Both the position numbers and the translations under genes were made by a program. A stretch of 64,000 nucleotides of DNA from Rhizobium rhizogenes (GTDB lineage: Bacteria > Pseudomonadota > Alphaproteobacteria > Rhizobiales > Rhizobiaceae): assembly GCF_002005205.3 (NCBI RefSeq), contig NZ_CP019702.2:2112001-2176000 (forward strand). Reading direction: 5' to 3'. A model generated the notes under the pieces. It did not search any database. It was not told where the DNA came from and worked only from the letters and a program-made list of their open reading frames with translations. Positions within the stretch are counted from its first letter, which is position 1. Each line of letters begins with the position of its first letter. Positions 570 through 64,000 of this stretch are shown in pieces.

Positions 570-2573
570 ATGACGACCGTACAACCGATCCGCTGGGGCA
601 TCATCGGCCCGGGCACCATCGCCAGAACCTTTGCTGACGGTATTGCCCATTCCCGCACCGGCAGGTTAGAGGCCATCGCCACCCGCAATCCGGACAAGCC
701 CGGCCTTGCAGAAGCTTTTGCCGGCGCGCGCATTATCAAGGGTTACGATGCCCTGCTTGCCGATCCCGCTATCGATGCCGTCTATATCGCCACGCCCCAT
801 ACCGGCCATGCCGAATGGGCGATCAAGGCGATCCGGGCCGGCAAAAACGTGCTGGTGGAAAAACCCATCGCGCTCTCGGCCTATGATGCCGACGCCATTT
901 TCCACGAGGCGAAAAAGGCAGGCGTTTTCGCCGGCGAGGCCTATATGTACCGCCTGCATCCGCAGACGGCGAAATTGCTGGAACTGGTGAAAGCCCGGGC
1001 GGTGGGCGATATCCGCATCATCCGCTCCAGCTTCGGTTTCAACATGGGTTCGTTCCGGGCCGATCACCGGCTGTTCGCCAATGAAACGGCGGGCGGCGGC
1101 ATTCTCGATGTCGGCGGTTATCCGGTTTCCATGGTGCGGATGATCGCCGGTGCCGTGGACGGAAAACCCTTTGCCGAGCCGGAAAAGGTTGCGGGTGCGG
1201 CGCATCTCGGCCAGTCGGGCGTTGATGAATGGGCCTCGGCCGTGCTGAAATTCGCAAACGGCATCGTCGCCGAGGTCTCGTGCTCGATCATGGCGGCGCA
1301 GGACAATGTGCTGCGCATCATCGGCTCGGAAGGGCGCATCGAGGTCAAGGATTTCTGGTTCGCCGCCGGCCACAAGGGCGGCACCGGCCGGATCGATATC
1401 ATCAGGGGCGACAAGGTCAAAACCATGGAATTGCCGGAGGATCGCTGGCTTTATTCCTTCGAGGTCGATGCAGCGGGTGAGGCAATCCGCCAGGGCAGAC
1501 ATGAATTCGCGGCACCTGGCATGGCCTGGGCCGACAGCCTCGGCAATCTGCGTGTCATGGACCAGTGGCGGGCTTCCGTCGGGCTGGAATACAGCATCGA
1601 AAAGGCGACATCGCGCATCGGAAATATCGCCGGTGGCAAGGTCGTCGCCGGAAATTCGGTTCCCAAGCGGCAGATACCGGGCCTTGCCAAGCCCGCTTCC
1701 GTGGTCGCGCTCGGTTTCGAATTCTTCCCCAACTTTGCCTCCGCATCCCTGACGCTCGATGCCTTTTACGAGGCCGGCGGCAATCTCTTCGATACGGCCT
1801 ATGTCTACGGCGCTGGCAGGACCGAGGCGATTTTCGGCGACTGGCACACCAGCCGCAATGTGCCGCGTGAAGAGATCGTGCTGATCGGCAAGGGTGCGCA
1901 TTCGCCGCTCTGCTATCCCGATATGATTACCAAACAGCTCGATCAGTCGCTGGAGCGGCTGAAGACGGATTATGTCGATGCCTATTTCATGCATCGCGAT
2001 AATCCCGACGTGCCGGTCGGTGAATTTGTCGATGCCATGGATGCCGAAGTCCGGCGCGGCCGCATTCGCGGCATTTTCGGCGGCTCGAACTGGACGCGCG
2101 AGCGCATGGACGAAGCCGCGGCTTATGCGCAGAAGAACGGCAAGCAGGCGCCCGGCGCGCTTTCCAACAATTTCTCGCTTGCCGAAATGCTCGATCCCAT
2201 CTGGGCAGGCTGCGTGGCGGCATCAGACGACGAGTGGAAGGCCTGGCTGCGATCGCGCCAGATCCCCAATTTCGCCTGGTCCAGCCAGGGGCGCGGTTTC
2301 TTCACCGACCGGGCAGGGCGCGACAAGCATGACGATGAGGAAATCGTCCGCGTCTGGTATTCCGACCGCAACTTCGTCCGCCGCGACCGGGCGATCGAGC
2401 TTGCGCAGAAACTCGGCCGCCACCCGATCCACATTGCGCTCGCTTATGTCATCGCCCAGCCTTTCCCGGTCATCCCGCTGATCGGGCCGCGCACGATTGC
2501 GGAGCTGGAGGATAGTCTTTCGGCGCTGGATATCGCGCTGACGCCCGAACAGGTGAAGTGGCTGGAGGCGTGA
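570..2573 (+). CDS. Fused Gfo/Idh/MocA dehydrogenase - aldo/keto reductase
   Basis: A single 667-residue frame carries two complete NAD(P)-dependent sugar oxidoreductases. Residues 1-350 are a Gfo/Idh/MocA protein with a nucleotide-binding loop (GIIGPGTIA) and the family EKP motif at about residues 97-99. Residues 375-667 are an aldo/keto reductase with the whole catalytic tetrad: Asp408 and Tyr413 in FDTAYVYG, Lys441 in LIGKG and His475 in YFMHRDN. The start at 570 has a GAGGA ribosome site; an ATG at 552 is in frame but has none. It follows an ABC ATPase, so the substrate is probably an imported sugar. The two halves could act in sequence or as an oxidation/reduction pair; the reaction is not known. 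Confidence 0.85.
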   Translation: MTTVQPIRWGIIGPGTIARTFADGIAHSRTGRLEAIATRNPDKPGLAEAFAGARIIKGYDALLADPAIDAVYIATPHTGHAEWAIKAIRAGKNVLVEKPIALSAYDADAIFHEAKKAGVFAGEAYMYRLHPQTAKLLELVKARAVGDIRIIRSSFGFNMGSFRADHRLFANETAGGGILDVGGYPVSMVRMIAGAVDGKPFAEPEKVAGAAHLGQSGVDEWASAVLKFANGIVAEVSCSIMAAQDNVLRIIGSEGRIEVKDFWFAAGHKGGTGRIDIIRGDKVKTMELPEDRWLYSFEVDAAGEAIRQGRHEFAAPGMAWADSLGNLRVMDQWRASVGLEYSIEKATSRIGNIAGGKVVAGNSVPKRQIPGLAKPASVVALGFEFFPNFASASLTLDAFYEAGGNLFDTAYVYGAGRTEAIFGDWHTSRNVPREEIVLIGKGAHSPLCYPDMITKQLDQSLERLKTDYVDAYFMHRDNPDVPVGEFVDAMDAEVRRGRIRGIFGGSNWTRERMDEAAAYAQKNGKQAPGALSNNFSLAEMLDPIWAGCVAASDDEWKAWLRSRQIPNFAWSSQGRGFFTDRAGRDKHDDEEIVRVWYSDRNFVRRDRAIELAQKLGRHPIHIALAYVIAQPFPVIPLIGPRTIAELEDSLSALDIALTPEQVKWLEA

Positions 2574-61796: not shown

Positions 61797-64000
61797 TTAG
61801 AACCGATAGTTCAGCCCGACCTTGATGGCATGCAGGTTCAGCGAGTTGGAAGCGTTGCGGCCATTGGCAATTCCGGAAGTCCCGACATGATCGACATATT
61901 CGTAGATCGGCGATTCATAGGGCTCGCAGACTTCCGGCATGGAATCGCAAAGCCAGGCCATGTTCGGATCGCCCTTCAAGCCGGGATCGACCATCTCCGT
62001 GCCCGTCTGCTCACTGGTGCGATAATCCTTGCCGGTGCCGGCGCGGGCGTCCTTGAACTTGAACGATTTGGCGCGGAAATGGCTGTAGCTGTAATCCGCA
62101 CGGATCGACCAATTATCGTTCAGCGCATATTCCGCACCGAGGCCGATGGTGAAGCCGGCACGTGTTCCGGAAGCCTTCTCCACGAAGAATGCCGTCGTTT
62201 CAGAGCCGAGAGGATTGCTCGCGCTCGCGCCGTCGGAAATATACTGGTCGCGCCACTGGGTTTCTTTCGCCAGCGCCAGGCCGGCGGTGGAGTAAACGAG
62301 AAGCCTGTCATTCACGGCATAACCGAGCTTCGCCCGCAGACCGGCCGTCCAGTCGATATCGTAGCTGGTCGTTGCGTCCACGTGGCCGCTCTTTGCCAGC
62401 ACCGGATCGGTGGAACCGAACTTTTCGAGGCCACGAAGATAGGTCTTGGTGTAATCGGCCTCGACGCCGACGACAAAGCCGTTTTCCAGCTGCCGGTCAT
62501 AACCGGCCTGCAGTCCAAACGCGCCGCCCCGCAGGTTGAAATCGGCTGATTCCCGTGCGGCCGCATCGTTGAATGTGCCATCCAGCGAGGTCGTATTTCC
62601 GGCAAAATTCAGGAAATCGCCGCCGGCATGGGCACCCACATGGAAGCCGGTCCAGTCACGCACGAAGGATGCGTCCGTCGGGCTGCTGAAGGGGGAAAGG
62701 CCGGGCAGGGCCTCGCCGCCGCCGATCGTCGCGGTAAGGCTCGCATAGATCGTGCGGCCGGGACCGGGCTGCGTGACGAGGCCGAGCGGATCGACATAAA
62801 AACGGTCGAACAGGTTCTCCACCCGCAGGCTCGCGGTCATATTGTCGTTGATCTTGTATTCGGTAAACAGATCGACCAGCGTATAGGGCTCCCAGTCGAC
62901 AAGTGCGATGAATTGCGACGCGCCCTGCGCGGTGACGTCGCCGTGGCCGATGGCGCGCGGGCCGACATAGGAGACGCGGCCGCCGACCGTCAGCCGGTCC
63001 TCGAGGAATTTCTGCGAAAGCGTCAGGTCGACCGTATATTCCGGCTGAACATGGTTCGTCGCGTAGTCGCCATAGAGAGACTTGCTGTCGCAGGTCTGGG
63101 TCGTGCGGCAATATTCGACATTCAGGAAGTAGTTGGCGGAAAGATCGGCCGAAAATCCGCCATTGGTGTAACGGCCGGAAAGTTCGAGACCGGAAAATTT
63201 GGCACGCGGAATATTGCCGATATTTAGCGTCAGCTGCGGTTCGGTCACGACGGTGCGCGAGATGTAATTCTTCACATCCCAGTTGAAATAACCGAACTTG
63301 ATCATGGCGGTATCATCGTCGGAGAAGATGCCGTCGCGAATGATGTTGGTGCCGATTTCCCAGTTGCTGGAGCGTTCCGGCAGGACGCCGGCATTCGCGA
63401 TGACGCTGTTGAAAGCCGAGACGGATTCAATGATGGATGGCGAGCGCAGCGTATTCGAATAATTGACGTAGAACTGGGTGTTGTCGAACGGTTCCAGCGT
63501 CACTCCGGCAGATGGGCTGAAACCGCCGTCATCCACTTTCAGGCCAACCGGCTTGTCCTGCGCCTGATAACGCTCATAGGGATCAAATCGGTCTTCAACC
63601 CAATAATGGGAATATCGCAGGCCGCCATTAAGGGTAAGCCAGTCCACCGGCTTGTAAGCTGCCTTGGCAAAGGCTGCACCTTCATGGCGAATGGCGTCGC
63701 GCGGGGTCAGCCAGCCCTCCAGAACGGCGGTGTGGTTGCTGCCCTTGGTGTCTTCGGCGCGGTAGGAAAATCCGTAATTCAGGTCGAAATCGCCGTAATC
63801 CAGGCTGAACTGCGAGCGGTTGGTAATCTCCGCTCCCCACATATTGGTATCGGTGCCGACCCGGAATCCCGATGGCAGGCCGATCTTCTCCGGCGTCAGG
63901 CCACGCCCGCCGCGCACGGGGTTGCGGACTTCGAGATGGTTGAAATAGAAATTCGACTTGAAGTCGATGAGGTCGTTGTCTTCGGGGTTCCAGTTGTATC
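61797..64000 (-). CDS. TonB-dependent receptor fused to an Omp25/31-like barrel (N-terminus outside window)
   Basis: The last 733 residues are visible; the frame is open at the right edge. From 64000 to about 62720 it is the barrel of a TonB-dependent receptor of the haem/siderophore group, with LRSPSIIESVSAFN and the final strands TASLRVENLFDRFYVDP and RTIYASLTATIG, where such proteins normally end. After a 20-residue linker, 285 further residues form a second domain of the Omp25/31 surface-protein type: DWTGFHVGAHAGGDF, GGAFGLQAGYDRQLENGFVVGVEADYT, and a terminal VGLNYRF with C-terminal Phe. No stop or frameshift divides them. It converges on the lipoprotein gene. Ligand is unknown, iron-haem likely. 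Confidence 0.86.
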   Translation of the reverse strand, partial: YNWNPEDNDLIDFKSNFYFNHLEVRNPVRGGRGLTPEKIGLPSGFRVGTDTNMWGAEITNRSQFSLDYGDFDLNYGFSYRAEDTKGSNHTAVLEGWLTPRDAIRHEGAAFAKAAYKPVDWLTLNGGLRYSHYWVEDRFDPYERYQAQDKPVGLKVDDGGFSPSAGVTLEPFDNTQFYVNYSNTLRSPSIIESVSAFNSVIANAGVLPERSSNWEIGTNIIRDGIFSDDDTAMIKFGYFNWDVKNYISRTVVTEPQLTLNIGNIPRAKFSGLELSGRYTNGGFSADLSANYFLNVEYCRTTQTCDSKSLYGDYATNHVQPEYTVDLTLSQKFLEDRLTVGGRVSYVGPRAIGHGDVTAQGASQFIALVDWEPYTLVDLFTEYKINDNMTASLRVENLFDRFYVDPLGLVTQPGPGRTIYASLTATIGGGEALPGLSPFSSPTDASFVRDWTGFHVGAHAGGDFLNFAGNTTSLDGTFNDAAARESADFNLRGGAFGLQAGYDRQLENGFVVGVEADYTKTYLRGLEKFGSTDPVLAKSGHVDATTSYDIDWTAGLRAKLGYAVNDRLLVYSTAGLALAKETQWRDQYISDGASASNPLGSETTAFFVEKASGTRAGFTIGLGAEYALNDNWSIRADYSYSHFRAKSFKFKDARAGTGKDYRTSEQTGTEMVDPGLKGDPNMAWLCDSMPEVCEPYESPIYEYVDHVGTSGIANGRNASNSLNLHAIKVGLNYRF

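Follow-up and report, generated by a model that had tools for sequence, protein, structure and literature searches.

A probable HasR-like heme receptor from Rhizobium rhizogenes with a second, predicted eight-stranded outer-membrane barrel in the same chain

The window, a 64,000-nucleotide stretch of a Rhizobium rhizogenes genome (G000:C2:2112001-2176000), contains part of a gene whose product is, on domain searches and structure models, almost certainly an STN-bearing TonB-dependent receptor joined by a linker to a second complete 8-strand barrel in one protein. The minus-strand reading frame (61797..>63998) is free of stops and exits the window at its right edge. At the genome level, the open reading frame begins with an ATG and encodes 1,217 aa (L004:5797-9450), while a second, internal ATG gives a 1,195-aa form (P0001), whose residue numbering is used throughout unless the 1,217-aa form is named. 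The features of the gene that fall in the window are as follows.

61797..63998, minus strand: two-barrel, probable heme receptor, the part inside the window (733 aa plus stop; the rest lies to the right of the window)
62724..63998, minus strand: C-terminal part of the HasR-like TonB-dependent receptor barrel (22-strand-type), P0001 residues 463-887
about 62724-62759, minus strand: last strand of the receptor
62655..62723, minus strand: inter-barrel linker of 23 residues, P0001 888-910, presumably periplasmic
61800..62654, minus strand: C-terminal 8-strand barrel of the Omp25/31 type (the tail), P0001 911-1195
62241..62252, minus strand: R-x-Q-Y motif specific to the tails (Arg1045, Gln1047, Tyr1048), where strand 5 reaches the extracellular side
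61860..62054, minus strand: long last extracellular loop of the tail (L4), residues 1111-1175
61857..61865, minus strand: tail-specific N-G-R motif (1174-1176) at the top of strand 8

Pfam places on this one chain an STN domain (PF07660), a Plug domain and a TonB-dependent receptor barrel extending to residue 880, followed by an OMP_b-brl domain (PF13505) at 932-1137 (both in the 1,217-aa numbering) that scores 59.1 bits against a cut-off of 28.7 (E 8e-16). The closest named relatives are 98% identical; their records bear the names Agrobacterium tumefaciens and Rhizobium rhizogenes. In the AlphaFold2 model of a 98%-identical ortholog, a full HasR-like receptor is followed by a low-confidence linker and 8 additional transmembrane strands, and the tail of the window sequence modelled alone also has 8 strands, with a pLDDT of 90.6. 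The receptor part has a plug and a complete 22-strand-type barrel, the PF13505 barrel pairs its Pfam score with an 8-strand model, and models and Pfam together predict at least two complete membrane barrels in the chain. An earlier note on this DNA had placed the last receptor strand near nt 62720 and had read the following 285 or so residues as a covalently joined, Omp25/31-like barrel. This description has held up well: the computed end is at 62724, the extension is 285 residues long (Trp911 to Phe1195), the AlphaFold2 models give two separate barrels, and the suggested domain search past the linker returned PF13505, with 8 strands in the model and distant relatives called 'outer membrane immunogenic protein' in their source records.

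Such an architecture could in principle arise from a frameshift or sequencing error fusing a receptor gene to an adjacent barrel gene, or the 285 residues could be loops of a single barrel, but we consider either extremely improbable. The hidden stop near 62720 that the note had named as a danger was looked for and is absent, and nothing about the window gene favours an artefact. Frame breaks of their own do occur in three receptor relatives (L068, L080 and L047, from records of Pseudochrobactrum, Nitratireductor and Brucella cytisi). Full-length matches with 93-100% identity are present in 8 of the 39 genus genomes, a count that includes the window's own genome, and a ninth carries a more distant fused gene. 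The tail was also found in 41 of 76 usable named loci, a fraction not to be read as a frequency because the loci (79 distinct, 76 of them usable) are the best 80 of 300 confirmed stretches in a contig scan seeded with fused proteins. Because the in-frame junction thus recurs in independent assemblies, both among the genus genomes and among the named loci, a hidden stop or assembly error was ruled out. A single barrel with long loops was likewise discarded, since the structure models separate two barrels.

Genes for a FecR-type protein (PF04773) and a FecI-type sigma factor (Sigma70 r2/r4) lie directly upstream of the receptor gene on the same strand. With its STN domain, the receptor thus has the make-up of a signalling transducer of the FecA/FpvA type. 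Upstream of the sigma gene, again on the same strand, is a 321-aa ORF (L004:11210-12175, minus strand) that matched no Pfam or NCBIfam family. P0001 scores 337.1 bits against TIGR01785, above the curated cut-off of 316.85, and among solved proteins HasR matches it best, both by sequence (E 3e-57) and by structure. Gene clusters neighbouring the receptors at the 76 loci, with a Pfam check on one to three members of each, include FecR-like (63), sigma-like (46), TonB-like (28) and ExbD-like (6) proteins. A heme oxygenase-like gene is found near 16 of the 76 receptors (11 of 41 tailed and 5 of 35 tail-less); 13 of these 16 genes are co-oriented with the receptor and begin at most 147 bp downstream of it (one overlapping as called), and all three members tested match PF01126. 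No heme oxygenase gene adjoins the window gene, and the sole match in its genome lies elsewhere. Because of the oxygenase-like genes beside related receptors, heme is very probably the ligand. The tail-less relatives (39 of the 83 aligned receptors described below) share the same type of genomic context, the oxygenase-like gene at 5 of 35 loci included, so the basic function can do without the tail.

The receptor part resembles HasR of Serratia marcescens and the TIGR01785 family in its STN domain, plug, 22-strand-type barrel and FecI/FecR-type neighbours. It differs from HasR by the second, C-terminal barrel, and also at the positions on the plug and loop that we take to hold the two heme-ligand histidines of HasR: these align with Tyr225 and, at the second site, a Phe. 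A HasR-type His pair was sought by alignment and is absent. Tyr225 is kept in 82 of 83 aligned receptors (44/44 fused, 38/39 tail-less), and a ligand pair other than that of HasR is possible. Because Tyr225 and Phe replace the histidines, we call the receptor HasR-like rather than HasR.

To follow the tail among relatives, 83 receptor rows were aligned, comprising the 76 loci, the window, five further genes of the genus and the other Has-like receptor of the same genome. The broken or truncated L068, L080 and L087 were left out before rows were counted. L011 was also dropped, a frame on the wrong strand having been picked for it, although its gene carries the tail. The homologue count that the earlier note had proposed gave 44 tailed receptors of 83, the window included, with tails of 222-322 aa and linkers of 18-34 residues. 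All but one of the 39 tail-less rows end exactly at the last receptor strand, typically with GRTFYASLTAxF-stop. The exception, L060, ends with TTTLGGE-stop three residues past that strand; no tail remnant was found at its locus, but its end resembles a fused-type junction cut short and suggests loss of a tail. A tail match above 200 bits was obtained in at least 3 of 397 genomes of the order, its own included, with at most 6 candidates scored per genome. These matches lie in frames of 1,244 (its own), 1,121 and 1,208 aa, and the next best among the matches listed for the 397 genomes scored 150 bits in a 370-aa frame. The claim that the architecture is very unusual therefore stands in part: few genomes have it, but it is found across the Hyphomicrobiales and also in Caulobacterales and Sphingomonadales, and a class of multi-barrel proteins had already been described.

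A search with the tail alone returned 44 hits, of which 37 (P0067-P0103) are non-fused and only 27-34% identical. The remaining seven (P0060-P0066; 163-440 aa, 48-88% identity, on contigs of 1.0-3.7 kb) are probably pieces of fused genes, given that PF00593 is present in one and that another is named hemoglobin/transferrin receptor. One candidate for the tail as a stand-alone gene, a full-length profile match in a 329-aa frame (G104), was rejected as an ordinary Omp25-type protein with, by eye, a leader of its own.

On the receptor tree, which was built by a quick method and drew long-branch warnings, 7 changes of the tail label are required (mean of 28 after shuffling), and well-supported branches force at least 5 of them, each a gain or a loss of the tail. 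In the tail tree, 41 of the 44 tails form one group (SH-aLRT 91), separate from 9 domains taken from other multi-barrel chains and from the 37 further PF13505 proteins, and three short tails (L089, L095 and L096) fall outside it. Tails of the one group sit on receptors as low as ~34% identical to the window receptor (Bradyrhizobium). A single origin followed by losses and a transfer of tails between receptors are both compatible with the trees. Tail dN/dS was 0.04-0.24 in 14 of 14 pairs and exceeded that of the receptor part in 12 of 14, with pairs that share rows and are therefore non-independent and with some dS values saturated (above 1); by this measure the tail is under purifying selection.

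The tail resembles the Omp25, Omp31 and Hbp (Pap31) barrels of rhizobia, Brucella and Bartonella (PF13505) in its 8 strands, its conserved periplasmic half, its W-x-G-x-Y/H start and its NYRF-type end. Its relation to Omp31 and HbpA is at the level of Pfam and fold only; the full model matches Pap31 only weakly by fold, at 19% identity. Sequence comparison of the tail with the PDB gave only chance ribosomal hits, and a viral fold library returned a phage SusC-like receptor and generic barrels, which were uninformative. Unlike the free barrels, the tail is fused behind a receptor, has longer extracellular loops and carries an extracellular set of residues of its own (Arg1045, Gln1047, Tyr1048, A-x-A-G and NGR). 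Among 30 non-redundant tails, Arg1045, Gln1047 and Tyr1048 are kept in 30, 30 and 27, and Asn1174, Gly1175 and Arg1176 in 23, 28 and 30. The corresponding counts among the 37 other PF13505 proteins (P0067-P0103, seven of which have 457-517 aa and possibly more than one barrel) are 0, 3 and 1, and 1, 0 and 1. Loop L4 opens with a conserved A-x-A-G (1113-1116), and its cysteines 1146 and 1153 persist in roughly half of the tails (22-27 of 44 rows, according to the alignment used). Together, Glu945, Arg1045, Gln1047, Tyr1048, Ala1113/Ala1115/Gly1116 and Asn1174-Gly1175-Arg1176 form a cluster of tail-kept residues at the extracellular rim that are not kept in the 37 other PF13505 proteins.

An initial enrichment of signature residues on the outside (23 of 27 extracellular versus 4 of 40) was set aside for a weaker but fairer matched control, because the residues compared had been picked by different criteria. 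The control consisted of the 30 best Omp25-type loci from 297 genomes of the order, obtained with one barrel of the same genome as query and including paralogues. Non-redundant sets were matched for mean pairwise identity (30 tails, 0.416; 26 controls, 0.418), with the outlying tails L017, L089, L095 and L096 left out. Conserved columns in the extracellular half numbered 26 of 182 in the tails versus 3 of 74 in the control barrels (p 0.017, corrected for loop length), and the periplasmic halves were equal (40 of 96 filled columns conserved in the tails, 40 of 95 in the controls). With the four outlying tails included (34 tails), 20 extracellular and 37 periplasmic positions were conserved. The extracellular face of the tail thus appears more conserved than that of other Omp25-type barrels, although the effect is modest. 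Since barrels of this kind usually vary most in their loops, conservation of the outer face points to a partner or ligand that is itself conserved. A scan for conserved His, Tyr and Cys residues gave no convincing heme ligand pair in the tail, and no known heme site was recognisable by sequence in the protein. His919, considered as a tail-specific ligand, was rejected: 13 of the 37 other PF13505 proteins have it too, and by parity it faces the barrel interior.

Based on these observations, we propose that the two barrels lie next to each other in the outer membrane and are connected by a periplasmic linker. The large barrel would import heme with TonB-derived energy, and the arrival of heme would be signalled through STN, FecR and FecI. 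The small barrel, rather than serving as a heme channel, would act as a surface module on a tether, capturing or docking heme or a heme-protein next to the mouth of the receptor. Omp31 is reported to bind haemin (Delpino et al. 2006, cited in PMC9728373), as is the HbpA/Pap31 group of the same broad family (PMC8877253), and it is these reports together with the conserved outer face that suggest capture or docking. Taken whole, the picture of a signalling HasR-like heme receptor with a tethered capture or docking barrel seems to us evenly poised between right and wrong, and the capture or docking role of the tail, considered by itself, is slightly more tentative than that. Of the functions that the earlier note had offered for the second barrel, a haemin-binding platform or co-receptor is favoured because the protein appears to belong to the heme receptors, heme oxygenase-like genes adjoin its relatives and the extracellular face is conserved. 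Loops of the receptor itself, lipopolysaccharide or another protein are equally possible partners of the conserved face. A more specific version, in which the tail is a membrane-embedded, Hbp-like tethered hemophore with a heme site of rim Tyr and Arg residues (Tyr1048, Arg1045 and Arg1176) and passes heme laterally to the receptor mouth, is unlikely. If true, a single chain would combine the tasks that the separate proteins HasA and HasR divide between them.

The main rival to capture or docking is an assembly or organising role, in which the tail supplies the terminal beta-signal and aids insertion of the large barrel by BAM, or packs on the receptor loops and fixes its orientation or partners. 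From what is generally known of BAM, the tail, as bearer of the chain's sole terminal beta-signal, may be the first part to enter it. Phe terminates 43 of the 44 tails, the exception (L047) being frame-broken near its end. The last residue of the receptor part in the 44 fused proteins is Phe in 27, Ile in 9 (the window among them) and Leu in 8, and tail-less receptors end with Phe in 37 and Trp in 1 of 39, with L060 as the sole non-aromatic case. Scored as aromatic or not, fused and tail-less receptors differ in a pooled Fisher test (p 4e-5), but the difference is non-significant on 5 independent tree pairs (median p 0.5). Moreover, receptors without a tail exist, and any C-terminal fusion would relax the receptor end. 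We therefore regard this role as rather unlikely, if a little less so than the last reading to be weighed, namely that an Omp25-type gene was joined once and retained by inertia, leaving the tail an ordinary small surface barrel for adhesion or membrane integrity. The repeated changes of the tail label on the quick tree, the possible junction relic at L060 and the rarity of the fusion in the order are in keeping with such an incidental tail, and purifying selection in all pairs, the conserved extracellular face and the spread of one tail group over receptors as divergent as those of Bradyrhizobium speak against it; we think it improbable.

Multi-barrel outer-membrane proteins are known mainly by prediction, and why barrels should share a chain is little understood; combinations with 8-strand barrels reportedly prevail. 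To our knowledge, there is no other link between Omp31/Hbp-type barrels and a heme transporter, and a demonstration that the second barrel captures ligand would provide one. Natural pairs of tailed and tail-less heme receptors occur within one genus and even within one genome (L048 with L077; L040 with L098), and with the defined conserved surface of the tail they make a direct test of ligand capture possible. In having more than one membrane barrel per chain, the protein resembles the class described by Solan et al. (2021, PNAS; as cited in PMC11494523), for which GfcD serves as an example in the citing article (PMC11494523). The class is thus already known, and the heme-receptor combination is added here as a further member; no description of a fusion between a heme receptor and a barrel was found in the openly licensed PMC literature.

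Several other combinations fit the described class. P0040 (1,358 aa, source name Methylocystis bryophila) and P0046 (1,150 aa) each join a siderophore-type TonB receptor to two PF13505 domains and are predicted three-barrel chains. Further multi-barrel chains have three tandem PF13505 domains (P0041, P0042), an omptin between or beside PF13505 domains (P0039, P0043), or an OprB domain preceded by a PF13505 barrel at the N-terminus (P0048, whose source name for the OprB part is 'Mn2+ porin'). A 1,071-aa protein of G073 (L109:3522-6737) combines a different TonB receptor, by eye without STN, with an Omp25-type tail and looks like an independent receptor-barrel fusion.

No hemophore was recognised beside the window gene when its ORFs were inspected by eye and the genome was searched for the HasA family, a search run without a positive control. 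The same genome has a second Has-like locus (L005:3041-10982; G000:C2:1851041-1858982) with a FecR gene, a tail-less STN receptor (923 aa), a gene for a 251-aa protein and, by eye, an ABC exporter and a membrane fusion protein. The 251-aa protein (L005:7065-7820) was considered as a HasA and rejected, the likeness being by eye only and the Pfam HasA family giving no match. Finally, a record named 'Bacillus subtilis strain SK6B4' (L086) holds a TonB receptor that groups with those of Brucellaceae and is probably a contamination or mislabelling.
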